A stretch of 64,000 nucleotides of DNA, from the NCBI RefSeq assembly GCF_000527035.1, contig NZ_AZUK01000001.1:2182001-2246000 (forward strand), given 5' to 3'. Below are positions 20,370 to 35,551 of the stretch, one piece after another. Positions within the stretch are counted from its first letter, which is position 1, and the number at the start of each line of letters is the position of its first letter. The notes beneath the pieces were generated by a model. The model made no database searches, was not told the DNA's origin, and was given only the letters and a program-made list of their open reading frames with translations. Origin of the DNA: Tolumonas lignilytica. Its GTDB lineage: Bacteria; Pseudomonadota; Gammaproteobacteria; Enterobacterales; Aeromonadaceae. A program made the translations under genes and the position numbers.

Positions 20370-20402
20370 ATCCTCCGTGGGAATGCCCCGGAGGATTTTT
20401 TT
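20370..20402 (+). terminator. Rho-independent terminator of the DUF1127 gene
   Basis: Stem ATCCTCCG with CGGAGGAT, extended by GGG/CCC pairs in the loop, then a run of six T. It ends at the stop region of the convergent GGDEF/EAL gene. Confidence 0.85.
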
Positions 20403-23400
20403 ATGTGGTTGGCTTTGAATGCTGTTGTAAGAGTTGCGCAAATTCATCAGCAGGAAGAGGGGGGCTCATTAAGTATCCTTGATAACAGTCGCAGCCCTGT
20501 TCTTTCAGAAAGTTGAGCTGTTCCATATTTTCTACCCCTTCAGCCATGACCTTCAGGCGTAATGTATGCGCAATCGCTACGATGGTGGCGGCAATTTCCA
20601 TATCATCTTTTTTGTGGGGAATATCGTCGACGAAGCTCTTGTCTATTTTCAGGACATCCAGCGGGAAGCATTTCAGATAAGAGAGCGAGGAATAACCGGT
20701 TCCAAAATCATCGATCGCCAGTTTGATGCCTTTGGCCTGTAACTGGCTGAGAATGTCGATCGCTTCCTCCTCGCGTGACATCAAGATGCTTTCGGTGAGT
20801 TCCAGCTCCAGTTTATTGGCTGGGAAGCCGGTATCAGTGAGAGCACGGCTGACAATGCTGTAGATATCGCTGTAATGAAACTGCACCGGTGAAATGTTGA
20901 CGGCCAGGGTGAGATCGGGCAGCCCCTCTTCCCGCCAGCGCTGCCCTTGACGGCAGGTTTCTGTCAGTACCCATTCCCCGATCTGCTGGATCAAGCCGGT
21001 TTCCTCGGCAATAGGGATAAAGTGCACAGGCGAGATCAGTCCATGTTTCGGATCTTGCCAACGGACCAAGGCTTCGGCCCCGATGATGCGTCCGCTGTTG
21101 ATTTCAACCTGTGGTTGGAAATAAACCCGCAGTTCATTTCGATCGAGTGCCTGTTTTAAGCGAAATTCCATATCCAGCCGTTGTTCCGCGAGGCCAGTGA
21201 GCTCGCTAGAGAAATATTTGAAACAATTCCGGCCGTTTTCTTTGGCGAAATACATGGCCGCATCGGCTTTTTGCAGTAATTCCTGTGGTGCAGTGCCATG
21301 GTCGGGATAAAGGCTGATCCCGATGCTGGCGCCGAGCATGACATCGCGGTCATTGGGGAGGCGAAACGCCTTTTTCATCAATAAAATGACGTTGGTCGCA
21401 ATCGCATTGATGTATTCGGGCGGCGGATTGTCGTCGAGTAAAATGGCGAATTCATCACCGCCTAAACGGCTGATTTTATCGGGCATTTGCAGATGTTGCT
21501 GCAGACGGTGGGCTACTTCTTGTAACAGAACATCCCCGATGGGGTGCCCGAAGCTGTCGTTGACGTCTTTGAAGCGATCCAGATCGACAATCAGCAGTGC
21601 CACCCGTTTCCGGTTCACACTGCCGGACTGAATCGCATTCTTTAAATTGATATTGAGCAGGATACGGTTTGGCAAGCCGGTCAGTGGATCATAGTGGGCC
21701 TGATGTTTTAATCGGGCTTCGGTTTCTTTGATTTTGCGAATATCCGTCAGGGTGCCGATATACCCGATGATCTGATTTTGCTCATTGGTCTCTGAACGGG
21801 CATGAATAATCAGCCAGCTGTCTTTATGTTTATGGTTTTTAAGAGGTAGCCGGCATTCCATTTCACTCTCACCGTGGCTGAATAAATGCGGCAACCATTC
21901 CTGATATATTTTGCGGTAATCATCGTTGTTGAGGGCATTTAGCCAGAGGGCGGTTTGCGACTGGCTCGGCATTTGTAAAAGCTCAGCCCCGAATTCGTTG
22001 ATGTAGAGTAAATTGCCGTAAGGGTCGAGGCGGAAAATACCCACATGAACAAAGGTAGCCAGATTATGAAACAGGCGCTCGCTGGCGACTAATTGTTGAT
22101 CCCGATTAAAATTATCCAGCGCGAAGGAGATATCGCTGGCCACCTCCGTGAGTGTGTTCTGGATAGTCTCGGTAAAAAAGTCTTTTTCTTTGGCGTAGAG
22201 CCCCAATACACCAAACAGTTTTCCGCCTTCATAAATCAGATAGTAGCCGGCCGACAGCACTTGAGCGGCTTCAGCAATGGCATGAAAGGGGCTGGTTAGC
22301 GTCTCGTGCAGATAATCATTCAGGATGATGTTTTTTTGTTGCGCGATAGCATGCATAGCACCTGTGCGGGAAAGCAGTGTAGGGTCTTTGCGTTTTTGTT
22401 CGGTGATCCAGTCGGTGAAGCCACTGTTGTCGCCAAAGGTATGAATAATGTTGACATCGTCTTGTTCTGGCGTGCATTGAGCAATCATGGCTAATGAAAA
22501 ACCGCCATCTTCAACGGCGATCTGGCAGACGCGTTCGAACAGGATTTCCCTTGAAGGGCAATGTACGATCGCCTGGTTAGTGTGCGACAGCATGTTGTAG
22601 AGCAGATTTTTCTTCTTGAGCTCTAACTCGCTGGCTTTGCGGCGGGAGATATCTTCGACGACTCGCACGATAAATGAGATGCGGCGGTTTTCTTCCCGCA
22701 CACAGTGCGTGTCAATCAGCACATGAAGGAAGGAGCCGTCTTTGTGCTGTATTTGCCGTTCACGCTGAAATCCATCAGAAAGATCCAGTTCCATCTGCCG
22801 GATCAGCGGCAGCTCCGATTCTCGATCCTCTGGAGAGAGGAGCGCGGTGAATTCGACCTGGTTCATCTCTTCGCGGCTATAGCCCACCAATTCACATAAC
22901 TGATTATTGAAACGCAGCCAGCGCCCGGTCTGGGCATGTGTGATGGCCATACCAAACAGTGGGAGTTCAAAGAAATGCCGCAGCAACCGATCTTTTTCTG
23001 CGGTTTTTTGTCGCAGCACTAGGGCATTGCGGTATTGCTGCTGCCGCCATTGCATGTAGAGCAACAACATGAGCAGGATGTCGACAAACAGCAAACCCAG
23101 CGTGAGCCAAATGAGCTGGTTATAAAGTGGTGCGTAAGCTTCTTTCTGGTCTTTTTGCAGTAACACATGCCAGCCGGTATAGGCGACCGGCTGATAGCTG
23201 GCAAATACGTCGTGCTGGCGTTCATCTTTTACTGTCAGGGTCGCCGACTGATCGGAAAGCGCTTTTGCCAGCAGGGAGTTATGTTGCTGCGGATAAGGAA
23301 TGTCTTTGATGTCAGCGCCCAGAGCGTTATTGGCGGGTACATGAATAGCGAGAACCCGTTCATCGTAGGGTTGCAGTAACAGGGTAAAGCCCGTGGTGCT

Positions 23401-23991
23401 GCTGGGCCAGGTTTCGATTTTTGGCAATAATGCGGTGGCAACCGCCTGTGTCAGTTGTAAGGCGCCAATCACAAAAAAGGAGTTGGGATCCCGCAGCGGG
23501 ATACGAATGCCCATATGCAGTGCACCATCGGCATCACGAAACCAGTCGGTCGTAATATTGTGAGCATTGGTCGGTGTGGAGGTCTCATTGAGTTTCTTGA
23601 CAGGGGCATTGCCTAAAACCAGACGAGGCCGGTTTTTTTGGTCAAACACCGTGAGTGATTCATAAGCCATGCGTCGTTGTAATTGGGCAAAGGTTTCCTC
23701 GATTTCGCTGGCCGGGTAATGCGGGTCACGATTCAATTGTACCGCCATGTTGATGAATAACGGGTTATTTTCCAGAACTTGGGCATCACCTACTCGTTCA
23801 TTCAGCCACGATTCGATCTGGTCGGATTTTTGTTGTGTCAGGATGCGAAGTTGCAACAGCTCATCATGGGCAATTTGCTGTTGTTGGATGTGAAAAAACA
23901 GCAGGGGGATCAGCAATACCAGTAATAGCTGTATCAAGAACAACCATTTTAATTTTGAATTTCTGAATGCATTGTCGGTTGAGTGATCCAT
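20401..23991 (-). CDS. Membrane cyclic-di-GMP enzyme with periplasmic sensor, PAS-GAF-PAS-GGDEF-EAL
   Basis: A 1196-residue sensor of cyclic-di-GMP metabolism. In order: membrane segment 15-34, a periplasmic Cache-like sensor at about 35-290, membrane segment 291-313, PAS 333-450, GAF about 480-630, PAS 635-755, GGDEF domain (motif 844-848) and EAL domain (Glu973-Leu975). The diguanylate cyclase motif is intact. The RxxD inhibitory site expected just before GGDEF is missing (QMPD). The EAL catalytic set looks intact: EALVRW, NISPVQF, ELTES, DDFGTGYSS (1094-1102), KIDKSF and EGVEN. It may therefore both make and degrade the messenger. It starts 23 bases after a periplasmic binding protein gene. 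Confidence 0.93.
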   Translation of the reverse strand: MDHSTDNAFRNSKLKWLFLIQLLLVLLIPLLFFHIQQQQIAHDELLQLRILTQQKSDQIESWLNERVGDAQVLENNPLFINMAVQLNRDPHYPASEIEETFAQLQRRMAYESLTVFDQKNRPRLVLGNAPVKKLNETSTPTNAHNITTDWFRDADGALHMGIRIPLRDPNSFFVIGALQLTQAVATALLPKIETWPSSTTGFTLLLQPYDERVLAIHVPANNALGADIKDIPYPQQHNSLLAKALSDQSATLTVKDERQHDVFASYQPVAYTGWHVLLQKDQKEAYAPLYNQLIWLTLGLLFVDILLMLLLYMQWRQQQYRNALVLRQKTAEKDRLLRHFFELPLFGMAITHAQTGRWLRFNNQLCELVGYSREEMNQVEFTALLSPEDRESELPLIRQMELDLSDGFQRERQIQHKDGSFLHVLIDTHCVREENRRISFIVRVVEDISRRKASELELKKKNLLYNMLSHTNQAIVHCPSREILFERVCQIAVEDGGFSLAMIAQCTPEQDDVNIIHTFGDNSGFTDWITEQKRKDPTLLSRTGAMHAIAQQKNIILNDYLHETLTSPFHAIAEAAQVLSAGYYLIYEGGKLFGVLGLYAKEKDFFTETIQNTLTEVASDISFALDNFNRDQQLVASERLFHNLATFVHVGIFRLDPYGNLLYINEFGAELLQMPSQSQTALWLNALNNDDYRKIYQEWLPHLFSHGESEMECRLPLKNHKHKDSWLIIHARSETNEQNQIIGYIGTLTDIRKIKETEARLKHQAHYDPLTGLPNRILLNINLKNAIQSGSVNRKRVALLIVDLDRFKDVNDSFGHPIGDVLLQEVAHRLQQHLQMPDKISRLGGDEFAILLDDNPPPEYINAIATNVILLMKKAFRLPNDRDVMLGASIGISLYPDHGTAPQELLQKADAAMYFAKENGRNCFKYFSSELTGLAEQRLDMEFRLKQALDRNELRVYFQPQVEINSGRIIGAEALVRWQDPKHGLISPVHFIPIAEETGLIQQIGEWVLTETCRQGQRWREEGLPDLTLAVNISPVQFHYSDIYSIVSRALTDTGFPANKLELELTESILMSREEEAIDILSQLQAKGIKLAIDDFGTGYSSLSYLKCFPLDVLKIDKSFVDDIPHKKDDMEIAATIVAIAHTLRLKVMAEGVENMEQLNFLKEQGCDCYQGYLMSPPLPADEFAQLLQQHSKPTT

Positions 23992-24014
23992 ATCACCTTG
24001 ATTCCATCATCTTG

Positions 24015-24941
24015 TTATTTTCTCAGGTAAAACCGATAGTTTTCCGGTGTAACCAGTTGATAGGGAATGAGTTGTTCAGACGGCAGATGGTGTGTTTTTT
24101 CAGTCAGCGCCAGTGCGGTTTTCAAGGCCAGCGCCCCCTGTGCATTGGCGTCCTGAAACACGGTGACTGCCAGTTCACCTTTATACATCGAATAAAGGGC
24201 ATCCGGCGTGGCATCTATACCTGCGACCCGGATCGATTTGGTGGAGACTCCTGCCTTTTTCATCGCAATCAACGCACCCAGCGCCATTTCGTCGTTATTG
24301 GCGGCCACAATGTCGAATTGGGTGCCTTGGTGCAGCCAACGGGTCATGACGGCTTCGCCTTCGGTACGGCTGAAATTGGCAATTTGTTCATCAACCAGAT
24401 GCATTTGCGGGTGTTGCGCGATCACCGCCTTGACGCTTTGTGTCCGCTCCTGTGCGGCACCGGAGTTTTGCTTGCCGACCAAGATGACAACATTGCCTTT
24501 GCCGTGCGTCAGTTCGGCAAGGTATTCCATCTGCAGTTTCCCTGCGATCTTGTCATCGGAGCCAACATAATAGACACCTTCATCCAGCGGAACATTTGGT
24601 TTCCGGTTAACAAAAACCAGCGGGATGCCGGCTGGTCGGGCGAGTTGGATGAGTTTTTCTACCGGTTCCCGTTCCACGTCCACCGGATTAACGATGATGG
24701 CGGCCGCTTTCTGGGCAATAAACTGAGTTAGCTGTGCCTGCTGGCGAGACACGTTTTCTTGTGCATCGACGATACGCAAGGTGACCCCGGGATGTTGCTG
24801 GGCTTCGTCGGCAATGGCTTCGCGCAGGATGCTGAGATAATAATCATCAAAATGCGCCATGCTGACACCGATCAGGATCTCAGCGAAGCTGAAAACGGGT
24901 ATGCAGAGCCACAACATCATCAGCAGTAAAATTTTCAGCAT
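24015..24941 (-). CDS. Periplasmic sugar-type binding protein (Peripla_BP_4)
   Basis: A 308-residue periplasmic binding protein with a signal peptide (cleavage after about residue 20, ...FSFA|EILIG). The two-lobe fold of the ribose/galactose-binding class is indicated by GVSMAHFDDYYLSILREAI, IIVNPVDVE, GIPLVFVNRKP, YVGSDDKIAGKLQMEYL, AANNDEMALGALIAMKKAG and GIDATPDALYSM. There are no ABC permease or ATPase genes nearby. The next gene in the operon is a membrane GGDEF/EAL sensor, so it probably presents a ligand to that sensor and not to a transporter (inference). AGGAG precedes the ATG. The ligand is unknown; sugar or autoinducer-2-like compounds are possible. Confidence 0.85.
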   Translation of the reverse strand: MLKILLLMMLWLCIPVFSFAEILIGVSMAHFDDYYLSILREAIADEAQQHPGVTLRIVDAQENVSRQQAQLTQFIAQKAAAIIVNPVDVEREPVEKLIQLARPAGIPLVFVNRKPNVPLDEGVYYVGSDDKIAGKLQMEYLAELTHGKGNVVILVGKQNSGAAQERTQSVKAVIAQHPQMHLVDEQIANFSRTEGEAVMTRWLHQGTQFDIVAANNDEMALGALIAMKKAGVSTKSIRVAGIDATPDALYSMYKGELAVTVFQDANAQGALALKTALALTEKTHHLPSEQLIPYQLVTPENYRFYLRK

Positions 24942-25143: not shown

Positions 25144-26034
25144 TTAACGCTCCAGTTGTTGTAGCAGCCAGGTGATGGCCAGTAAATCGGCGCTGCCGCC
25201 GGGGCTTAAGTTGCGCTGGATCAGTTGTTGATCCATCGTCTGGAGAGCCTGCAGACGCGCAGTGGAAAGAAAGGCGGTGTCTTGCCGGATCTGACGGGCG
25301 TATTGCTGGACATAATCTAAACCGGCCAGACCGCCGCGGGCGACCAGATTGGTATCGTTATTGTGTTCCAACAAGGCCAACATCACTTCCAGCAGGGCGC
25401 TGTTGCGATCGGCGCCTTCATCGAGGGCCTGACGATACACCGGCAGGGCATATTTGCGCACAGTCTGAAAGCCCGATTCCACTTCACCCCGGACACCGCT
25501 TAATCCGTATTGATGGAAGAAGCGTTCACCCGCCGTGCGGGGATGCCGGTTGGCGGCCAGCTCGCGGGCGACGAGGCCCTCTGTGGCCTGAGCGACCACT
25601 TCACACAGAGTCTGTTGATTCAGAATTTTCCCCTGTTGCCACAGGCGTCCTGCTGCGGCACACAATAAAGAGAGCGAAAACAGCATTCCCTTATGGGTAT
25701 TGATGCCGGCAGTGGCCAGAAACATCGCTTGTTCGCACTGTCGACCCAGCGGGCGCAATGCCGCGAGCAGGCGATCGACCGGTTGATGGGCACTCTGGAT
25801 GCCGATGTCGGTAAAACGGGCCAGCCAGGGCGCAATGGCATCCGTGCTGCGCTCGAAGGTCTCGACCGTCATATCCTGATGGGCCCCGTTATTGGCGCGA
25901 TCCACCAGACCGGGTTTGGGGGTGGTATAAACCTCAACCAGCATGGCATTGCGTGCCAGCGCGGCCATGTCCCGCACGATTGCGGGTTTGATGGCGATGG
26001 AGGTGCTGCTGTCAGCATCAAAGAGTGCATACAT
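25144..26034 (-). CDS. citG: Triphosphoribosyl-dephospho-CoA synthase CitG
   Basis: CitG makes 2'-(5''-triphosphoribosyl)-3'-dephospho-CoA, the precursor of the citrate lyase prosthetic group, from ATP and dephospho-CoA. In 296 residues it shows the family motifs MLVEVYTTPKPGLVDRANNGAHQDM (about 33-57), AGINTHKGMLFSLSLL (about 135-150) and HNNDTNLVARGGLAGLDYVQ. The start is ATG 26034, preceded by ACAGGAACA and overlapping the citX end by 17 bases; an upstream in-frame ATG lies deep within citX. Last gene of the citC-D-E-F-X-G operon. Confidence 0.93.
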   Translation of the reverse strand: MYALFDADSSTSIAIKPAIVRDMAALARNAMLVEVYTTPKPGLVDRANNGAHQDMTVETFERSTDAIAPWLARFTDIGIQSAHQPVDRLLAALRPLGRQCEQAMFLATAGINTHKGMLFSLSLLCAAAGRLWQQGKILNQQTLCEVVAQATEGLVARELAANRHPRTAGERFFHQYGLSGVRGEVESGFQTVRKYALPVYRQALDEGADRNSALLEVMLALLEHNNDTNLVARGGLAGLDYVQQYARQIRQDTAFLSTARLQALQTMDQQLIQRNLSPGGSADLLAITWLLQQLER

Positions 26035-26584
26035 GGTGTTGTTCCTGTGTGGAATAAGTGCGCAGCGTTTGGCGGATGTGGGCGAGCAATGCCTCGCTGC
26101 TGTGGCGACGACTGCGTCCGCAAACGGCGGCCAATTCATCGCAGATCAGGCAGCGACGGGGGGCTAAGTCAAATTCGCGGCGTGACAGACTGCGCCCGTT
26201 GCTATCCAGCACATCCAGATCGAACAAGCGACCGAGCGGGTGCTGTTGTTCCAGCTGGATCATGGCGCTTTTCAGGCGCTGTGCGGCGATCGGGACACTC
26301 CAGAAGGCTTCGAGGCCGGTAATGGCGCGCCAGACCGCATGTGCGGTGACTGGCCAGCCTTGGGCTTTCAATACCTGTTGCACCGCCAGTATCCCTGCAG
26401 TCTGTAACTGATGAGCCTCCGCATTGTCTTTGATTTCCCCCGGCATATTGATGCAAAACGAAATCAGACTGCCGCCGTAACGCTGCAACCAGATCCGCTG
26501 GCGGGTCACTCGGTCTTCCCGAGCGGCCAACATCTGGGTCAGTCCGATACGAAGGTTGGTCGGGCGTTGGCTCATCAGTTCCAT
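26018..26584 (-). CDS. citX: Apo-citrate lyase phosphoribosyl-dephospho-CoA transferase CitX
   Basis: CitX attaches the triphosphoribosyl-dephospho-CoA group to the acyl carrier protein CitD. The 188-residue protein has GRLFDLDVLDSNGRSLSRREF (about 127-147), RRCLICDELAAVCGRSRRH (about 153-171), the typical CitX signature with its cysteines. AGGGG is 8 bases upstream of ATG 26584. It follows citF with a 19-base gap and overlaps citG. Confidence 0.92.
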   Translation of the reverse strand: MELMSQRPTNLRIGLTQMLAAREDRVTRQRIWLQRYGGSLISFCINMPGEIKDNAEAHQLQTAGILAVQQVLKAQGWPVTAHAVWRAITGLEAFWSVPIAAQRLKSAMIQLEQQHPLGRLFDLDVLDSNGRSLSRREFDLAPRRCLICDELAAVCGRSRRHSSEALLAHIRQTLRTYSTQEQHHVCTL

Positions 26585-26603: not shown

Positions 26604-28118
26604 CTATTTCACTTGTTTCACGACATCAATGATGCTGCCATCGCGGTAGCGGATGATCCCGACGATCCGGTCGGTATATTCGATGTCCGCTGGAATGCCC
26701 GTCAGCGCATAGGCACGCTCATTCAGCGCTTCAATCGACATCACCGGCAGTTTGGCGGCCAGCAGGCGTTCTTTTACCTCCGGCCGGGCCGGGTTGACCG
26801 CGATCCCATGATCGGTGACTAGCACATCAATGCTGCTGCCGGGAGTGATGCAGGTGGTGACCTGCTTGACCACGGTGGGAATGCGGCCTCGCACCAGCGG
26901 CGCCACCACGATGGTCAGATTGGCAGCAGCGGCGGTGTCACAATGTCCGCCGGAGGCACCGCGAAATACGCCGTCGGAGCCGGTGATCACGTTGACGTTA
27001 AAGCGGGTGTCGATTTCCAGTGCACTCAAGATCACCACATCCAGTTTTTCCACACAGGCCCCTTTCGAGGTCGGGTTGGCATACTGATTGGCGGAGATCT
27101 CCTGATGATGTGGGTTTTTGCCCAGCGATTCGGCTGCCACGCTGTCGAAGCACTGCACGTCCAGCAGAGTCTGGATCAGGCCGCGTTCGTGCAGTTCGAC
27201 CATGCTGGCGGTGATGCCACCGAGACCAAAGCGGGCCTTGATCTTATTGCGTACCATCTTGTCGGCCATAAAACGGGTCACCGCCAGAGAAGCACCCCCG
27301 GTGCCGGTTTGCAGCGAAAAGCCATTATTGAAATAACCGGAATGTTCGATGACATCGGCGGCTCGTCGGGCGATCAGCAGTTCACGCGGGTTGCTGGTCA
27401 TGCGGGTGGCATCGCCACCGATCTTGGTCGGATCACCGACATGTTCCACCTGCACGATGCCGTCGACACAATCCTGTGCAATGCTGGCCGGATAGTTGGG
27501 GTAACCGACCAGTTCTTCGGTCAGCAGGATCACATGGCGGGCATATTCGGCATCGACACGGGCGTAACCGAGCGAACCACAACGCGATTTGCCGGAGAAA
27601 CCATTAGCATTGCCGAATTCATCACTGCAGGGCACGCCAAGGAAAGCCACGTCGATCTGCAATTCGCCGGACTGGATCAGATGCACCCGGCCGCCGTGCG
27701 AGTGGATATGCACCGGTTCGTTCATTAAGCCATGTGAGATCGCGTCGGCGAGTTTGCCGCGCAGGCCCGAGGTGTAAATCTTACGGACGACCCCCTGACG
27801 AATATGTTCCAGCAGCGGGGCATGGCAGTTGGTCAGCGAACTAGCGGCTAACACCAGATCTTTGAAACCCATCTCTGCCAGCTTATCCATCACCATGTTG
27901 ACGGTCTTATCGCCATCGCGAAATGCATGGTGGAAGGAGATGGTCATGCCGTTTTGTAGGCCACTGGCGCGGATGGCTTCTTCCAGCGACGCGTGCAATT
28001 TGTTCTGGGTGTTGCGCTGAAGGGCGGTTTTATTTTCCACGGCAGCAAACAGCGGGATCTGGGGTGCCACCGAGGTGATCGCGTCGGGAATAGATCGTTC
28101 TAATATATTGATAGTCAT
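26604..28118 (-). CDS. citF: Citrate lyase alpha subunit (citrate:acetyl-ACP transferase)
   Basis: CitF exchanges acetyl for citryl on the acyl carrier protein, the first half-reaction of citrate cleavage to acetate and oxaloacetate. The 504-residue protein has SFHHAFRDGDKTVNMVMD, HSHGGRVHLIQSGELQIDVAFLG, the glycine-rich LQTGTGGASLAVTRFMADKM and GGHCDTAAAANLTIVVAPLVRGRIPT. ATG 28118 is chosen, with GAGG 7 bases upstream and just past the citE stop; an ATG 12 bases earlier overlaps citE. Confidence 0.96.
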   Translation of the reverse strand: MTINILERSIPDAITSVAPQIPLFAAVENKTALQRNTQNKLHASLEEAIRASGLQNGMTISFHHAFRDGDKTVNMVMDKLAEMGFKDLVLAASSLTNCHAPLLEHIRQGVVRKIYTSGLRGKLADAISHGLMNEPVHIHSHGGRVHLIQSGELQIDVAFLGVPCSDEFGNANGFSGKSRCGSLGYARVDAEYARHVILLTEELVGYPNYPASIAQDCVDGIVQVEHVGDPTKIGGDATRMTSNPRELLIARRAADVIEHSGYFNNGFSLQTGTGGASLAVTRFMADKMVRNKIKARFGLGGITASMVELHERGLIQTLLDVQCFDSVAAESLGKNPHHQEISANQYANPTSKGACVEKLDVVILSALEIDTRFNVNVITGSDGVFRGASGGHCDTAAAANLTIVVAPLVRGRIPTVVKQVTTCITPGSSIDVLVTDHGIAVNPARPEVKERLLAAKLPVMSIEALNERAYALTGIPADIEYTDRIVGIIRYRDGSIIDVVKQVK

Positions 28119-28126
28119 GGCAAACC

Positions 28127-29005
28127 TCACTGTCTGATGCCGGATGCTTCTGCGCGTTGGAGCACCCAGCGCGCGCGTTCAATGATCGGGGCATCGATCA
28201 TCTTGCCGTTCAGCGACACTACGCCTAAGCCCTGACTGGCCGCATTTTCAGCCGCTTCAAGAATCAACCGGGCGTGGCCGACTTCTTTACGGGTCGGGGC
28301 AAAGACGTTATGCAGCAGTTCAATCTGACGCGGATTGATCAGTGATTTGCCATCGAAACCCAGTTGTTTGATGTGCTCGGCTTCGTGGATGAACCCTTCT
28401 TCATTGTTGGCATTGGAATAGACAGTATCGAATGCCGCGATCCCGGCGGCGCGTGCGGCCTGCAGAATGGAGCAACGGGCAAACAGCAGCTCGATCCCAT
28501 CCGGCGAGCGTTCGGTGCGGATGTTGCGGACATAATCTTCCGCCCCCAAGGCGATCCCGATCAGACGGGGCGAGGCTTTGGCAATTTCCGGTGCATTGAT
28601 GACGCCCTGTGCACTTTCAATGGCCGCCATCATGCGGGTACTGCCCTCAGGACGACCGCATTTCCGTTCGACGGCGAGAATGTGACGCTCCATCTCCAGA
28701 ATATCTTCGGCCGAATCGGTTTTGGGCAAACGCACGACATCGACACCGGCGCGCACCACCGCTTCCACATCCAGCTTGCCGTAGGGTGAATCAATCGGGT
28801 TGACCCGCACGACTTTCTCGATGTCTTTATAGAGCGGCATTTGCAGGGCATGGAAGACCAGCAGACGCGCGGTGTCTTTTTCGGTGATGGCGACGGAATC
28901 TTCCAGATCGAACATCAGTGCATCTGGCTGATAGATAAAGCTGTTACTGAGCATGGCGGCGTTGGCTCCGGGCACGAACAGCATGCTGCGGCGTAATTTG
29001 CTCAT
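28127..29005 (-). CDS. citE: Citrate lyase beta subunit (citryl-ACP lyase)
   Basis: CitE cleaves citryl-ACP to oxaloacetate and acetyl-ACP. The 292-residue TIM-barrel protein of the HpcH/CitE family begins [21 protein letters not shown]. The acidic [16 protein letters not shown] (about 34-49) and [11 protein letters not shown] are family marks, with [16 protein letters not shown] and [15 protein letters not shown] holding the catalytic and Mg ligands. The start is in a 4-base ATGA overlap with citD, and GGAG lies 8 bases before. An upstream in-frame ATG within citD is not supported. Confidence 0.96.
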
Positions 29006-29301
29006 AACTCGCTCCAGTTTTGTTCCAGTAGCTGAGTGCCGGTGGCACGGATCAGCGCTGCCTGTACCCGGGCTTTGATGACGCAATCCAGCGCGCCTTT
29101 GTCTTCGACGATGACCCGCACCCCGGTGATGTTTAATTTATTCAGGGTGTCGTGGATCAGGCGCTGGATGGCGGTGCCGAACTGCTTTTCGACCACACTT
29201 TCCAGTTCGATCTCAATCTCCTGTGTATCGACCGGTTGGATGCGGATCAGCACATCGCCGGATTCGAGCGTCCCGGCATGGGACTGTTGTGTTATTTTCA
29301 T
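29002..29301 (-). CDS. citD: Citrate lyase acyl carrier protein (gamma subunit)
   Basis: CitD carries the covalent triphosphoribosyl-dephospho-CoA arm of citrate lyase. At 99 residues it has the expected size. Ser14 in [11 protein letters not shown] is the attachment site, and the [14 protein letters not shown] helix matches the family. It follows citC by 60 bases and overlaps citE by 4 bases, so the three lyase subunits are translated together. Confidence 0.95.
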
Positions 29302-29361: not shown

Positions 29362-30411
29362 TTACACGGCAAGCGAATGCGCCACGGGCGGTGATCCATA
29401 GTGTTGCCACAGATAGCGATAGGTGGTTTCCGGCACGAGCGACCTCACCGCATCAGGCCCTTTTCTGGCGAGCAGTTCCCGCACCCGACAGGCGGAAATC
29501 GGCTGAGCGGCCTGCTGCCGGCGTTCGATTTCATGTAATTCAATGACGGGAGCGGATAAGGTTTCGGTGGTCAGCCAGTAGGCCATTTCACGGTTATATT
29601 GTGCGGTCACGGGACACAGCGGTTCGGTGCCGACATAGCGGCGATTAATGCCCAGTGCCGGCGCAATCTGTTGACGGAAAAGCTGCAGATCGAGCGCCAT
29701 ATGGCAGTGATTGATGATCTTCTGGCTTTTCAGGAAATAACTGGGAAATGTCGCCCGGGAAATCAGATAGTCAGAGCCCGGATGCACCGTCAGATTTTTA
29801 AAATCCGCAACCCCGGCCTTGATCAGGGCCAGACGATCTTCGTATGGGAATTCCGACGCATTCTCCTGCACCACAAACAGATGGACCCAGTCACATTCGC
29901 GGCAGGCCTGCTGCACCAGATAACGATGCCCCAGCGTAAACGGGTTGGCATTCATCACGATGCCCCCGATGCGCTGGCCGGGTTGGCGTTGCTGTGCCAG
30001 TTGACGGCAATAACGATGTATCCGCGTGGCACTGTTTTCCATCAGGATGACCTGATCATCCACACTGGCCAACAGATGAAATCCGCATTCAGCGAACAGG
30101 GCTTCATTTTCCGGCTTGGTAAAGAGAAACAACTCATAACGTTGCAGACTGAAGGCCTGATTGATCAGGGTGGTCATCAGGCGCAAGGCCAGACCATGAC
30201 CGCGCAAGGCCGGTTCAATGGCGATGCATTTCAGCACCCGTCCGGCAATGCCACCACAAGCGACCAACTGCTGCTGTTCATCCAGTGCAACAATAAATTG
30301 TTCAATGTCCAGATCGATATTTAAGTTATTGCGTTGCAGAAAATCAGCAATTTGTTGCCAGCGGGATATTTCTGCTTTCAGCACACAACAGAAAATGACT
30401 TCATCGTTCAT
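29362..30411 (-). CDS. citC: [Citrate (pro-3S)-lyase] ligase CitC
   Basis: CitC acetylates the prosthetic group of CitD using acetate and ATP, switching the lyase on. The 349-residue protein has an N-terminal GNAT-like domain (about 1-130, VLKCIAIEPALRGHGLALRLM). It is followed by a nucleotidyltransferase domain with the HxGH-type motif NANPFTLGHRYLVQQA (about 153-168) and the ISxxR-like SACRVRELLARK near 322. First gene of the citCDEFXG operon, divergent from the citrate transporter gene. The ribosome site is weak (AAGG). Confidence 0.94.
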   Translation of the reverse strand: MNDEVIFCCVLKAEISRWQQIADFLQRNNLNIDLDIEQFIVALDEQQQLVACGGIAGRVLKCIAIEPALRGHGLALRLMTTLINQAFSLQRYELFLFTKPENEALFAECGFHLLASVDDQVILMENSATRIHRYCRQLAQQRQPGQRIGGIVMNANPFTLGHRYLVQQACRECDWVHLFVVQENASEFPYEDRLALIKAGVADFKNLTVHPGSDYLISRATFPSYFLKSQKIINHCHMALDLQLFRQQIAPALGINRRYVGTEPLCPVTAQYNREMAYWLTTETLSAPVIELHEIERRQQAAQPISACRVRELLARKGPDAVRSLVPETTYRYLWQHYGSPPVAHSLAV

Positions 30412-30792
30412 GGTTATACAGCCTTAAGGGGCTAATCAAAATTGCTGTATATATGAAAGGTGATTTCCGGTTATTTTTTTTTGATCACTCTCAAGTGAAA
30501 AAGCGGTTTAAATAACGGATATAAATTATATGAATTAAATTATTTGGCTGGAGTTTGTTTGTTGAATTTAAGTGGTTTTGATGAATTTGTATATAAAAAT
30601 TATAAGATAATTAAACGCATAAAAACGCCGGATTATTTAACCACCGATCAAAAACCATAGCAATTTTTACCGCTAAATTCCCATCATCGTAAAACTAAAA
30701 AACATGCCCGCGAGTGCTGACTTCTGGTGTTTACCGGCTGTAGGCCATGTATCCGAGGGAATACTGCGTTATTGTAAATAGGAGACATTACA
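30412..30792. promoter_or_regulatory. Divergent AT-rich control region between citC and citS
   Basis: 381 bases without a gene, clearly richer in A and T than the neighbours, between the two divergent citrate units. It carries an FNR-like site near citC and several T/A runs. In Klebsiella the analogous citC-citS interval is where CitB and CRP bind; the nearby citAB genes make CitB binding here likely, but I cannot point to a defined CitB motif. Confidence 0.7.
30481..30494. promoter_or_regulatory. FNR-like site upstream of citC
   Basis: TTGAT-CACT-CTCAA matches the FNR consensus TTGAT-N4-ATCAA at 9 of 10 positions. Reading toward citC, a TATATA element lies about 30 bases downstream (30448-30455). 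This places the site near -45 of a possible start, an activating position for anaerobic induction. Confidence 0.55.
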
Positions 30793-32166
30793 ATGGGAAA
30801 AGAGCAGGCCAATGTTGCTGATACGAGTGATCTGTCACTGAGTAACGGCACGGCAGAAAAATTCTGGCCACATGGCTGGTGGAAAATATTCGATATCAAG
30901 ATTGGAATTATTCCTGTCCCTTTATTTTTAATGGCGGCTGCATTAATAACGGCATTATGTCTGACGGGGGATTTACCCAGTCAAATGACGACCATGGTCG
31001 TGGTGCTTGGCTTTTTTGGATTTATTTGCGGTGAAATCGGTAAACGCTTACCGGTATTAGGAAAAATAGGGGCGGCAGCCATTTGTGCCACCTTTATTCC
31101 TTCGGCATTGGTTTATTATCATTTATTACCGGCCTCTATTATTGCGCCGACCAAAGTATTTTATAAATCAACCGGGATACTTTATTTATATATCAGCTGC
31201 ATTATTGTCGGCAGTATTTTCAGCATGGATCGGAAAACGATCATGCAAGGCTTTCTGCGTATTTTTATCCCCATGGTCTGCGGCGAAATCGTTGGTGCGC
31301 TGGTGGGTGTCACGGTCGGTAGTCTGCTGGGGCTAGGGGCTTTCCACTCCTTATTCTTCATCGTGTTACCCATTATGGCAGGGGGCGTCGGCGAAGGGGC
31401 GATTCCGTTGTCGATCGGTTTCCACGACATCATGCATATCGAACAGGGTGTTGCGTTTGCCCAGATCATCCCGATGGTGATGCTGGGGAGTCTAACCGCG
31501 ATTTTGACGGCCGGTATTCTGAATCATATTGGTAAACGCAAGCCTCATCTGACAGGGGAAGGCCGTTTGATGCCGGGTTCAGGCGAAGAGCTGGGCAGCG
31601 CCACCATCACTGGCGGTTTAAAAGATGCGGTAGATGTCACCGGTTTAGCGGCGGCGGCACTGATGGCGCTGTTGCTCTACATGGCAGGTATTCTGGGGCA
31701 ACGTCTGGTGGGCTTACCGGCTCCGGTAGGCATGCTGTTCGCCGCCGTGTTGGTCAAGGTCACCCAAACGGTTTCGCCACAAATGGCCAGTAATGCCAAC
31801 GTGGTTTATCGGTTCTTCCAGACTTCGGTGACCTACCCGATCCTGTTCATGGTCGGTGTCGCGATCACGCCTTGGGAATCGCTGATGGCCGCCTTCACGT
31901 TTTCCAATCTGATCGTGATCATTTCCACCGTATTGAGTCTGGTGACCACCGGTTTCTTTGTCGGTAAAAAAATGGGCATGCATCCGATCGATGTTGCCAT
32001 CGTTTCCTGCTGTCAGAGTGGTCAGGGTGGTACCGGTGATGTGGCGATTCTGTCTGCCGGTAACCGGATGTCACTGATGCCATTTGCCCAAATTGCGACC
32101 CGTATCGGGGGTGCCATCAACGTGACGCTGGCATTGGTGGTACTGGCCCATTTCTTCAACTTCTGA
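30793..32166 (+). CDS. citS: CitS-type citrate:sodium symporter (2-hydroxycarboxylate transporter family)
   Basis: A 457-residue membrane protein that should import citrate with sodium ions. The two re-entrant-loop signatures of the 2HCT family are visible: MAGGVGEGAIPLSIGF (about 196-211) in the first half and CCQSGQGGTGDVAILSAGNRM (about 399-419) in the second, with MSLMPFAQIATRIGGAI near the end holding the Arg that contacts citrate in CitS. About eleven hydrophobic segments. GGAGA precedes the ATG. Divergent from citCDEFXG and followed by the FAH-family gene. A malate/citrate exchanger of the same family cannot be excluded. Confidence 0.92.
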   Translation: MGKEQANVADTSDLSLSNGTAEKFWPHGWWKIFDIKIGIIPVPLFLMAAALITALCLTGDLPSQMTTMVVVLGFFGFICGEIGKRLPVLGKIGAAAICATFIPSALVYYHLLPASIIAPTKVFYKSTGILYLYISCIIVGSIFSMDRKTIMQGFLRIFIPMVCGEIVGALVGVTVGSLLGLGAFHSLFFIVLPIMAGGVGEGAIPLSIGFHDIMHIEQGVAFAQIIPMVMLGSLTAILTAGILNHIGKRKPHLTGEGRLMPGSGEELGSATITGGLKDAVDVTGLAAAALMALLLYMAGILGQRLVGLPAPVGMLFAAVLVKVTQTVSPQMASNANVVYRFFQTSVTYPILFMVGVAITPWESLMAAFTFSNLIVIISTVLSLVTTGFFVGKKMGMHPIDVAIVSCCQSGQGGTGDVAILSAGNRMSLMPFAQIATRIGGAINVTLALVVLAHFFNF

Positions 32167-32187
32167 TCTCAACTTTCAAGGTATCTT

Positions 32188-32212
32188 CAGCCCGGCATGA
32201 CTTTCCGGGCTG
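32188..32212 (+). terminator. Hairpin after citS
   Basis: 8-bp stem CAGCCCGG with CCGGGCTG, 9-base loop, 21 bases past the citS stop. There is no T-run, so it may attenuate or protect the message more than terminate it. The FAH gene 53 bases on could still be cotranscribed. Confidence 0.5.
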
Positions 32213-32264
32213 TCGCTTATGAATAACTACAACGCTGAATAAGTAATATTGGTGAGGTATTTCC

Positions 32265-33116
32265 ATGAAATTACTAAGTTTTGTCCGCGCCGATGGGTCT
32301 AAGAGTTATGGCATTTACAATGATGACGGCATCGTCGACCTGGGGTTGCGTCTGGGTGATAAATTCAATGATATCAAAGCGCTGCTGGCGGCTGATGCCT
32401 TAGATCTCATTCATCAGTATGTCGGGGCTGCGACTGACTATACCGCCAGCGAAGTGACCTTTCTGCCGATCATCGAATCACCCGGCAAAATCTTGTGCGT
32501 GGGGATGAATTACATGGCCAAGCGTCAGGAGTTTGCCGAGACCAATAATGCGCCCACCCTGTTTGTCCGCTTTCCCGAATCACAGACCGGACACGCCTGC
32601 CGGGTGGTGAAACCCCAGATCAGTAATGAATTCGATTATGAAGGGGAGCTGGCGGTCATTATCGGTAAAACCGGCAAACACATTAAACGCGAAGAGGCAT
32701 TGCAGCATGTGGCCGGTTACAGCTGCTACATGGATGGCTCGGTGCGCGATTGGCAGCACAGCTGGTTTACGGCTGGGAAAAACTGGCAGGAAACGGGGGC
32801 GTTTGGTCCGTGGATGGTGACGAGTGATGAAATCACCAACCCGCATGAACTCGACATTCGCACCTATCTGAATGGCCAGATGGTCCAGAATGACAATACC
32901 GGCAACATGGTGCACACCATTCCTGAACTGATTGAATATATCAGCACCTTCGCGACCTTGTCGGCGGGGGATGTGATCATTACCGGTTCACCCGGCGGGG
33001 TGGGTAAAAAACGCACGCCACCGTTGTTCTTGCAAGATGGCTACGTGATCGAGGTGGAAATCCAGAAGATCGGTAAACTGCGTAACCCCATCGTCAGTGA
33101 ACAGCGATGTAATTAG
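32265..33116 (+). CDS. Fumarylacetoacetate hydrolase-family enzyme in the citrate locus
   Basis: A 283-residue protein of the FAH superfamily. The metal ligands are Glu126, Glu128 (FDYEGELAVIIG) and Asp157 (MDGSVRDWQ), with KILCVGMNYMAK earlier and GDVIITGSPGGVG near 245. Family members hydrolyse or decarboxylate beta-diketo acids; FAHD1-type enzymes decarboxylate oxaloacetate, and related ones tautomerise its enol form. Citrate lyase produces oxaloacetate, and this gene follows the citrate transporter gene, so oxaloacetate decarboxylase or tautomerase activity is my inference. AGGTATTTCC precedes the ATG, and a strong terminator follows. Confidence 0.85.
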   Translation: MKLLSFVRADGSKSYGIYNDDGIVDLGLRLGDKFNDIKALLAADALDLIHQYVGAATDYTASEVTFLPIIESPGKILCVGMNYMAKRQEFAETNNAPTLFVRFPESQTGHACRVVKPQISNEFDYEGELAVIIGKTGKHIKREEALQHVAGYSCYMDGSVRDWQHSWFTAGKNWQETGAFGPWMVTSDEITNPHELDIRTYLNGQMVQNDNTGNMVHTIPELIEYISTFATLSAGDVIITGSPGGVGKKRTPPLFLQDGYVIEVEIQKIGKLRNPIVSEQRCN

Positions 33117-33138
33117 TTTTCCAACATGAGGGAATCAC

Positions 33139-33182
33139 GCCCGGACTGCATGTTTTTACGCATTCCGTCCGGGCATTTTTTT
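33139..33182 (+). terminator. Terminator of the citS-FAH unit
   Basis: 8-bp GC-rich stem GCCCGGAC with GTCCGGGC enclosing a 20-base loop that can itself pair in part (TGCATG with CGCAT), followed by a run of seven T. It overlaps the end of the convergent citB gene by two bases. Confidence 0.85.
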
Positions 33183-33861
33183 ACATGCAGCGGCGATAAA
33201 TCCGCTCCGGGCGTCCGACCTTGCCATGCATCACTTCGGCCTGCAGATAAGTCAGCGCCGCGCAGTGTTCCAGATAGCGACGTGCCGTGGTCTTACTGAT
33301 GCCAATCAGCTCACCCAAGGATTCTGCAGTGTGATAAACCTCGGCCGAGGTGAAGGCTTCTTTCACCTTATCCAGCGTCAATTCATCGATCCCTTTGGGC
33401 AAATTACGGTAGGTCATCTCCCGGGCTTGCAGATTAAACATTTCATCGACATGACGTTGATTGACGCTATCACCGGCACTGATCGAGCCCCGGTAGCGCA
33501 GATAACGTTGCAACGTATCCTGCAAACGGTCATAGCCGATCGGTTTCAGCAGGTAATCAAACGCGCCGCAACGCACGGCTTCCCGTACCGTTTCAATATC
33601 GCTGGCCGCGGTAATGAAAATCACATCAGGCGCATTTTTATCTAACAACATCTGCCGCATCAGGTTAATGCCTAAACCATCCGGCAGGAAATTATCCAAG
33701 AGGATCAAATCGGGCTTCAGCACGCGGATCATCCGTTGGGCTTCTGCCTGATTGGCGGCAATCCCAATCGGGTTAAAGCGGGCATGCTGACGGATAAATT
33801 GCGCATGTAGCTCAGCAATCCGCAGCTCGTCGTCCACGATAAGCACGTCGAATTTATTCAT
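33181..33861 (-). CDS. citB: Response regulator CitB (DpiA/DcuR-type)
   Basis: A 226-residue response regulator of the CitB class. The receiver domain has Asp10-Asp11 and the phospho-acceptor Asp56 (LILLDNFLPDGLG), with the conserved Lys in LLKPIGYDRL near 106. The C-terminal helix-turn-helix includes TAESLGELIGISKTTARRYLEHC (about 180-202). It is paired with the kinase CitA by an 8-base gene overlap and should activate the cit genes when citrate is present. DcuR, the C4-dicarboxylate homologue, is the main alternative, but the position beside the citrate genes favours CitB. Confidence 0.92.
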   Translation of the reverse strand: MNKFDVLIVDDELRIAELHAQFIRQHARFNPIGIAANQAEAQRMIRVLKPDLILLDNFLPDGLGINLMRQMLLDKNAPDVIFITAASDIETVREAVRCGAFDYLLKPIGYDRLQDTLQRYLRYRGSISAGDSVNQRHVDEMFNLQAREMTYRNLPKGIDELTLDKVKEAFTSAEVYHTAESLGELIGISKTTARRYLEHCAALTYLQAEVMHGKVGRPERIYRRCM

Positions 33862-35551
33862 AAGCGTTACCTTTTAGAGGAATAAACAGGGAGATGATCG
33901 TCCCCATTGGCTCGGCGTCATCCAGCGTGATATAGCCACCGGCATGGCTGACATAACGTTGAATCAGATACATCCCGTAGCCGTGACCGGATTCGGTTTT
34001 TGTGGTGACTCCGCGTTCAAAGATCCGGTCGACCATCTCGGGGGCGATACCGGTGCCGTTGTCGGCGACCTCAATCACCAGCTCGTTGCTGCGATCGCTA
34101 ATCAGCAGAGAAATCTGTTTGCTGCTGTCGGGGTTTTTCAGTGTGGCTTCAAAGGCATTATCCAGCAGATTGCCCAGAATACTGGTGAGTTCATCGGCGC
34201 CGAGGGCATCGGGTAATGTCTTTTTCAACTGGCAGGCCGGATCAAAGACCAGAGACAACCCCAGCTCCTGAGCCCGGATATACTTACTCAGCAGGTGCCC
34301 GGCCACCAGATTGTTGTTGAATGTACTGATAAAGAAATCAACCAGTTGCTGCTTTTGGTTCGACTCCTGACGAATGGTGCGCAGGGCATCTTCATAGGCA
34401 CCCAGCTGGATCAGGCCGCCAATGGTCGACAGCTTATTGGCATATTCATGGCGCATGACGCGCAGGCTTTCGGCATGTTGCTGCACCTGCGACAACTGGT
34501 GGGAGAGGGTGTGGATATCATCCTTGCGGCGGAAACTGACCACCCAACCCAATGCTTTGCCATCCAACTGACAGGGCACCCGGTTCGCGATGACATAATC
34601 CCCGTTGAGCGACAGGATCTCATCTTTGACCGCCTCCTGTTGCTGGGCATTGGGCAGAAAGAAATCGCACGGCGAAATAATTTCGCAAATGGGCAACCCA
34701 TCCAATTGCCGGTTTTCCGGGATGATGCCCAGGATCTGCCGGGCATTCTGGTTGATCGAATAAATCAGGCCATCCTGATTGACGGCAATCACGCCCTCAT
34801 AGACCGACTGCAAAATTGCCGATGCCATCCGTAACGACAGGGCAATCTCTTTCGGTTCCATATCCAGCATCTGGCGTTTGATATGACGGGCAAAGAAATA
34901 AGCTGCGAGGATCGAACTCAGCAGCATCATGCCCATCATGGCAATGATCGGGTTCAGATACAGGCTGCGCCATGACGCAATGCTGTTGAGCAGATAACCG
35001 ACCGACACGATCCCAATGACCTTACCCTGGTGATCGATGATGGGGGCCTTGCCGCGCATACCGAATCCCATCGTGCCTTCACGCAGCGAGAGATAGGTTT
35101 TTTTATGGATCAGTGCCGGCGAATTGTCATCACCCACCATGGGAAACCCGATCTTATCCGGATCGGGGTGGGTAATTCGGATCCCCTTTTCATCACCGAC
35201 CACGATGTAGTTGGCGTCGGAATAGTACTTCTGGATGCTCTCCACATCACGGCGGACTTCATCGTAGTCACGGTGTTCCATGGCGGCAATGATGGTCGGG
35301 CGGGAGGCAATCTGTTCGGCTTGCAAAATGGCGCGATGTCCCACCTCTTTGTCGAGAATATCGGCCAGCCGATGGTGCACGAAAATGCCAATAACCAGCA
35401 GTTGCAGGCTAATCACCAGCAAAAGCAGCAAAAACAGACGATTTTTGAATGTCATGCCGGTGGTATAAGGTATCAGCAAAGGGTGCAGCCGCATTTTTTC
35501 GACAATATTTTGGGGGATCGGGCGGTCATTATAGGAGGTGATTGCCTGCAT
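33854..35551 (-). CDS. citA: Sensor histidine kinase CitA (DpiB/DcuS-type)
   Basis: A 565-residue membrane kinase that should sense external citrate. Membrane segments are at about 36-58 and 200-222, enclosing a periplasmic PAS-like (PDC) domain with RPTIIAAMEHRDYDEVRRDVESI, ITHPDPDKIG and GKVIGIVSVGYLL as in CitA/DcuS. A cytoplasmic PAS (about 235-345) follows, then phospho-acceptor His368 in MRHEYANKLSTIGGLIQLG and the ATPase boxes DNAFEA, DNGTGI and SGHGYGMYL. I kept ATG 35551 (AAGAG upstream); it adds about 32 residues before the first membrane segment, so ATG 35494 or 35455 remain possible. Confidence 0.92.
   Translation of the reverse strand: MQAITSYNDRPIPQNIVEKMRLHPLLIPYTTGMTFKNRLFLLLLLVISLQLLVIGIFVHHRLADILDKEVGHRAILQAEQIASRPTIIAAMEHRDYDEVRRDVESIQKYYSDANYIVVGDEKGIRITHPDPDKIGFPMVGDDNSPALIHKKTYLSLREGTMGFGMRGKAPIIDHQGKVIGIVSVGYLLNSIASWRSLYLNPIIAMMGMMLLSSILAAYFFARHIKRQMLDMEPKEIALSLRMASAILQSVYEGVIAVNQDGLIYSINQNARQILGIIPENRQLDGLPICEIISPCDFFLPNAQQQEAVKDEILSLNGDYVIANRVPCQLDGKALGWVVSFRRKDDIHTLSHQLSQVQQHAESLRVMRHEYANKLSTIGGLIQLGAYEDALRTIRQESNQKQQLVDFFISTFNNNLVAGHLLSKYIRAQELGLSLVFDPACQLKKTLPDALGADELTSILGNLLDNAFEATLKNPDSSKQISLLISDRSNELVIEVADNGTGIAPEMVDRIFERGVTTKTESGHGYGMYLIQRYVSHAGGYITLDDAEPMGTIISLFIPLKGNAYE

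Follow-up and report, generated by a model that had tools for sequence, protein, structure and literature searches.

Citrate fermentation in Gram-negative bacteria is taught via a Na+-pumping oxaloacetate decarboxylase (OAD), and the question raised here is which enzyme handles the oxaloacetate released by citrate lyase at a locus without oadGAB. Such a locus was analysed in a 64,000-nucleotide stretch of the Tolumonas lignilytica genome (contig NZ_AZUK01000001.1; hereafter the window), where a gene of the fumarylacetoacetate hydrolase (FAH) superfamily follows the transporter gene. Judged from its sequence and surroundings, the product most likely converts oxaloacetate to pyruvate or to a usable form of oxaloacetate.

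Locus organization

Read along the window, citG-citX-citF-citE-citD-citC lie on the minus strand; a plus-strand pair, a 2HCT-family transporter gene and FAH, comes next, and the minus-strand genes citB-citA close the locus. The original prediction of citCDEFXG and citAB was borne out. NCBIfam cut-offs were passed by citG (25144..26040; TIGR03125, 340.9 bits), citX (26018..26584; TIGR03124), citF (alpha subunit, 26604..28130; TIGR01584, 797.6 bits), citE (beta subunit, the citryl-ACP lyase that releases oxaloacetate, 28127..29011; TIGR01588, 464 bits), citD (gamma subunit/ACP, 29002..29301; TIGR01608) and citC ([citrate lyase] ligase, 29362..30411; TIGR00124, 480.7 bits). The response regulator citB (33181..33861; NF007467, 259.4 bits, cut-off 264) fell slightly, and the sensor kinase citA (33854..35551; NF011627, 530.6 bits, cut-off 656) clearly, under these DpiA- and DpiB-type cut-offs; both are of DpiA/DpiB type. 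Just past citG (20401-24941), translation gave a large GGDEF/EAL-type sensor protein (1196 aa) adjoining a periplasmic sugar-binding-type protein.

The transporter (30793..32166, plus strand) had been called CitS-type. Its family stood (2HCT; PF03390, 456 bits), but it lies outside the CitS equivalog (NF047943, 200 bits, cut-off 600; TIGR00783, 412 bits, cut-off 549) and is of an FAH-linked type. The FAH gene (32265..33116, plus strand; 283 aa) follows after a 98 bp gap and ends at a strong hairpin (GCCCGGAC..GTCCGGGC) with a U-run (33138..33180, plus strand by RNA fold), a terminator-like element common to FAH and the convergent citB; the region 33110-33185 folded at -23.7 kcal/mol. Folding of the transporter-FAH gap gave a further plus-strand hairpin (approximately 32187..32212) without a U-run, so that read-through into FAH is plausible; at the same gap in relatives, a hairpin is followed by T-rich sequence. 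A promoter scan of 30300-33300 scored no better than shuffles.

Oxaloacetate enzymes in the genome

The absence of oadGAB, originally noted for the locus, was extended by profile searches of the whole genome (99.96% complete): no OadB (PF03977) was found, and the FAH gene was the sole match to PF01557. The one PYC_OADA protein, on contig 2 near a LysR-type gene, was assigned as pyruvate carboxylase subunit B (PycB) because it adjoins a biotin carboxylase. The OadA-like subunit of this two-subunit pyruvate carboxylase (L119:3830-7093) passes the oadA equivalog cut-off, a model that would misname it. Homologues of malate dehydrogenase, SdhA/FrdA, PckA and malic enzyme were all present, so the organism may not need FAH for its carbon balance.

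Family, fold and active-site residues

The window FAH matched PF01557 over the whole domain (206.9 bits, cut-off 23.9). Its best NCBIfam scores were to HpaG-C-terminal and DhyDRhm hydrolase models, both far under cut-off, and HpaG (4-hydroxyphenylacetate bifunctional isomerase/decarboxylase) was scored at 172 bits (cut-off 276). A role in aromatic degradation was rejected on the HpaG score and on the lack of aromatic-degradation genes beside FAH; the combination of oadGAB elsewhere in the genome with linkage to aromatic degradation in relatives was looked for and not found. Profile E-values were 5e-65 for YisK, 2e-40 for FAHD1 and 4e-37 for YcgM. Foldseek returned YisK (8sky) as the nearest solved fold and matched Cg1458 (4dbf) at 25-27% identity. 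The AlphaFold model had a mean pLDDT of 78.7, with a lid below 50 that is too weak to place Lys86.

Residues were compared in 107 aligned sequences, comprising 73 members of the clade of the window FAH (termed K-type) and 34 relatives outside it. Position 86, matching His30 of the FAHD1 His30-Glu33 lid dyad, was Lys in 73/73 K-type sequences; the outsiders had His (32/34) or Arg (2/34). The human FAHD1 row that puts His30 in this column is presumed to be correctly placed, and His also occupies the column in the solved relatives 6j57, YisK and HpcE. Glu89 of the dyad was kept in K-type. The metal ligands Glu126, Glu128 and Asp157, predicted to be intact, are so in the window FAH and are invariant among the 73 K-type sequences. 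Over the whole alignment, E126, E128, R161 and K172 (the FAHD1 Lys123 equivalent) were kept in 107/107, position 157 was Asp or Glu, and Q164 (the equivalent of FAHD1 Gln109, and of Gln154) was lost in 2 outsiders only, being invariant in K-type. Further K-type markers were W174 and S242 (73/73) and W167 and K248 (72/73). In a tree built with residues 84-91 left out, all K-type sequences fell on one side of a fully supported branch and one change was needed; by this tree, K-type FAHs are one clade of single origin.

The His-Glu dyad of FAHD1 is the proposed water activator in acylpyruvate hydrolysis; Gln109 and Lys123 have roles in the decarboxylation and ketonisation carried out by FAHD1 and Cg1458 (PMC8398924, PMC7116474). 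With the dyad His gone and the Gln109 and Lys123 equivalents kept, the K-type active site looks, on its residues, ill-fitted for hydrolysing diketones, whereas it has what oxaloacetate chemistry would need. Members are annotated generically or misleadingly, as 'fumarylacetoacetate hydrolase family protein', '5-oxopent-3-ene-1,2,5-tricarboxylate decarboxylase' or 'ureidoglycolate lyase'. The published work searched described neither a single-origin lysine-lid FAH subfamily with ties to citrate lyase and tartrate dehydratase nor an activity measurement on any K-type protein; fold and chemistry were already known, and the lysine-lid subfamily with these ties appears to be the new part.

Linkage to citrate lyase across the order

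The window FAH, citF and OadB were searched in the same 198 genomes of the order, which gave 28 citF loci above cut-off. FAH lay within a few kb of 20 of these, OadB within 10 kb of three (G118, G179 and G187-C1), neither at five and both at none (Fisher p 0.017 per locus, uncorrected for kinship). The usual order in the FAH-type loci was transporter-FAH-citC-citD-citE-citF in one direction. The adjacency to be sought in other genomes recurs widely. OadB anywhere in the genome was found in 2/16 genomes with an FAH-cit locus and in 92/182 others (Fisher p 0.003, kinship uncorrected, with 10 of the 16 belonging to one family, which weighs on both tests). A DASS-family transporter was encoded at 5/5 citF loci with neither gene. 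CitT, which exchanges citrate for succinate in E. coli, is a DASS protein, and a transporter of this family is as expected for the succinate route; the three 'neither' genomes checked had malate dehydrogenase and SdhA/FrdA.

Named genomes with an FAH-cit locus included Raoultella, Kosakonia, Pectobacterium, Dickeya, Lelliottia, Aeromonas popoffii, Pantoea, Telmatospirillum and others, and an Azospirillum plasmid carried malic enzyme-FAH-citCDEFXG-2HCT. The link between FAH and cit genes is not local and is more than chance. This widespread arrangement had been missed originally, as had the His-to-Lys subfamily and the transporter's not being CitS proper. One genome (G187), which also carries an OAD-type and another FAH-type cit locus, has a second FAH-cit locus (G187:C2:301373, L027) with transporter and FAH intact and citC fragmented, apparently decaying.

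Comparison within Tolumonas

The genus is represented by 11 genomes, among them T. osonensis DSM 22975 (G199). FAH was found in the same slot, at 88-89% identity, in four other Tolumonas genomes (G202, G203, G206 and G207), all without OadB; in these and in the window it follows a 2HCT transporter different from that of T. osonensis. T. osonensis (L145) carried citS-oadGAB-FAH in the corresponding slot, and its FAH and those of the window-type arrangement were sisters in the tree. The T. osonensis transporter was CitS by NF047943 (706 bits, cut-off 600), whereas the window transporter and two other FAH-linked 2HCT transporters scored 200-218 bits. Transporter and OAD thus vary together, and FAH is common to both arrangements.

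The proposal that FAH stands in place of OAD therefore held for the window's genome and the four other Tolumonas genomes but not for T. osonensis or Formivibrio citricus (L063; OadB-FAH-OadA), where both enzymes are adjacent; a strict swap of OAD for FAH as a general rule was ruled out by these two. In G198, an MFS transporter and a LysR gene precede the co-directional genes ttdA-ttdB-FAH-pckA (L140:7108-11585). The same genome carries oadGAB without cit genes (L139:6408-9808), next to the MarR and EamA genes that also neighbour the cit locus of the window.

Gilliamella-like genomes

Ten Orbaceae-like genomes (family f27), each at least 99% complete, carried an FAH-cit locus. Family searches of the ten found no OadB, malate dehydrogenase or SdhA/FrdA above cut-off; in four (G102, G157, G181 and G192) malic enzyme and PckA were missing as well. 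One genome (G144), which shares 81-91% DNA identity with stretches of Gilliamella sp. wkB108 (L081), was read with E. coli and local references over 2.4 of 2.6 Mb (92%). Ppc, AspC, malic enzyme, citrate lyase and FAH were found in the part read, and mdh, mqo, fumA, aspA, frdB, pckA and pycB were not; gltA and fumC gave weak and partial matches only, and the absence of FrdA was taken from the SdhA/FrdA family search. Direct action on oxaloacetate in this part was confined to AspC and FAH, Ppc being an oxaloacetate source. A published survey of 95 Gilliamella genomes reported citrate lyase in all and no genes leading from oxaloacetate to fumarate (PMC11325843). In these genomes FAH would be the sole visible route from oxaloacetate to fermentation products, with aspartate, via transamination, as a possible sink.

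Other neighbours of the K-type clade

L(+)-tartrate dehydratase (ttdAB) was found beside K-type FAH at L066 (by model) and at L055 and L075 (by cluster), and a Raoultella plasmid carried ttdAB-FAH-NAD malic enzyme. In Brenneria salicis a CitMHS-type citrate transporter adjoined the gene; in Pantoea and relatives malate:quinone oxidoreductase lay ~3 kb away, a weak link. Such oxaloacetate-linked neighbours recur in several proteobacterial lineages. Linkage with citrate lyase, tartrate dehydratase, OAD, malic enzyme and PckA, together with the f27 genomes, makes the predicted handling of oxaloacetate by K-type FAH well supported as a sequence-based assignment, in agreement with the original prediction.

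Other surroundings were also seen. A LacI regulator, a dapA-like aldolase, an MFS transporter and K-type FAH formed a recurrent set (L063:6317-12234 in Formivibrio citricus, L035, L060, L076, L081 and L276), extended by OadA/OadB in Formivibrio and, in Citrobacter and E. coli, by a Dcu transporter; the aldolase substrate is perhaps one that yields oxaloacetate. A leuCD-like dehydratase, K-type FAH and an MFS transporter occurred together at L062, L072, L274 and L275 (with an alpha/beta hydrolase at L062, L072 and L275), on Klebsiella plasmids and on an integrase-flanked E. coli island at tRNA-Asn. At L064, L065 and L073, K-type FAH lay among peptide ABC transporters, a DppA-type D-aminopeptidase and a serine hydrolase, with no obvious oxaloacetate link.

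Alternative explanations

The FAH could act on another 2-oxo acid (an acylpyruvate, an HpaG-type substrate or 2,4-diketo-3-deoxyrhamnonate), as its hydrolase, isomerase or decarboxylase, and lie beside the cit genes only incidentally. The top NCBIfam scores and the clade members beside leuCD-like, dapA-like or peptidase genes speak for this, yet all such scores are far under cut-off, every K-type member has Lys for the catalytic His, and oxaloacetate-producing neighbours recur across lineages, making it improbable. It is more improbable still that FAH is a remnant or passenger and that citrate carbon leaves via malate dehydrogenase, PckA, malic enzyme or spontaneous decarboxylation: the genome does hold those three enzymes, but the gene has been kept in its slot, closely similar, in the four Tolumonas genomes lacking OadB.

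A serious competitor, raised originally as the alternative and in our view the lesser candidate, is a repair or conditioning enzyme that acts as a tautomerase only (OAT1-like), turning enol- into keto-oxaloacetate for the next enzyme (OAD, malate dehydrogenase, malic enzyme, PckA or AspC) and removing an inhibitor. YisK, nearest in fold and also close by sequence profile, is a proven tautomerase (kcat/Km 5.8e6 per M per s) and a weak decarboxylase (PMC10825186), and the window FAH is its genome's sole FAH. The strongest points for tautomerisation alone are the co-occurrence of K-type FAH with OAD, PckA and malic enzyme, and the assays of Zmuda et al., in which tautomerase activity of FAHD enzymes exceeded their decarboxylase activity on average ~20,000-fold (PMC10825186). 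Co-occurrence with L-tartrate dehydratase is a further point in its favour. PckA and malic enzyme, paired with FAH in other loci, consume keto-oxaloacetate or malate. Against it, the near-exclusiveness of OAD and FAH in cit loci would go unexplained, and the f27 genomes lack SDH/FRD and most oxaloacetate consumers, leaving aspartate alone as carbon exit. SDH is the known target of enol-oxaloacetate, and these genomes have none to protect.

Proposed oxaloacetate decarboxylase/tautomerase

The reading we prefer, at about even confidence, is that K-type proteins form an oxaloacetate-dedicated FAH subfamily of bifunctional tautomerase/decarboxylases, which would give pyruvate where OAD is missing. 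The ten f27 genomes are the strongest point for decarboxylation. The OAD genes beside FAH in T. osonensis and F. citricus, the PckA and malic-enzyme loci, the FAHD assays and the window genome's own enzymes count against a decarboxylase role. Chemically, the two reactions are compatible with one shared site, which favours a bifunctional enzyme. Cg1458 is described as a soluble oxaloacetate decarboxylase with the FAH fold (PMC4534308), and a review argued that FAHD1 decarboxylation follows tautomerisation and is not a side activity (PMC12176266).

Taking gene content, linkage, residue pattern and the absence of OAD as observed, we infer a substrate, a reaction direction and a role for Lys86 as follows. 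The protein would be a metal-dependent enzyme of the cytosol, FAH in fold and dedicated to the oxaloacetate that citrate lyase releases; this substrate would bind to the metal held by Glu126, Glu128 and Asp157. Enol-keto exchange would be driven by Lys172, and Gln164 would orient the C3-C4 bond for loss of CO2. Lys86, standing for the dyad His in the lid, would not activate water for diketone cleavage and may protonate C3 instead. The net conversion would be citrate to acetate and oxaloacetate, and oxaloacetate to pyruvate and CO2, by a soluble enzyme that would stand in for the Na+-pumping decarboxylase and have tautomerase activity built in.

Among known systems, YisK, YcgM and human FAHD1 share the FAH fold, metal ligands, active-site Gln and Lys and oxaloacetate chemistry with the window FAH, which differs in its lid Lys for His, its single-origin clade and its linkage to citrate and tartrate catabolism; unlike K-type, that group is linked to the TCA cycle or to 2-hydroxyglutarate dehydrogenases. 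Cg1458 (Odx, Corynebacterium glutamicum) shares the family, the decarboxylation Gln and the proposed net reaction, but is distant in sequence, and the literature searched described no citrate lyase linkage for it. OadGAB in citS-oadGAB-citAB loci occupies the same slot with, as proposed, the same net reaction, and is an unrelated, membrane-bound, biotin-dependent Na+ pump. The lactic acid bacterial CitP-CitM pair likewise combines a 2HCT-family transporter with a soluble oxaloacetate decarboxylase, as proposed for the window, but CitM is a malic-enzyme homologue and not of the FAH fold.

In its widest form, which we advance tentatively and with less than even confidence, the proposal would make the proteins with a His-to-Lys lid a previously unrecognised FAH subfamily whose dedicated task, when many proteobacteria ferment citrate and tartrate, is soluble decarboxylation of oxaloacetate. 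Its members would operate alongside a 2HCT transporter subfamily of its own kind, take over from the Na+-pumping OAD and, in bee-gut Gilliamella, close the pathway gap that follows citrate lyase. Most citrate lyase loci in the sampled order are without OAD and have a K-type FAH instead. The K-type family also bears on the dispute over whether FAHD proteins are tautomerases or decarboxylases. If it is a tautomerase, repair of enol-oxaloacetate would reach from respiration into fermentation; if it is a decarboxylase, a large set of genomes, including those of bee gut symbionts, would gain a working citrate pathway with different energetics.
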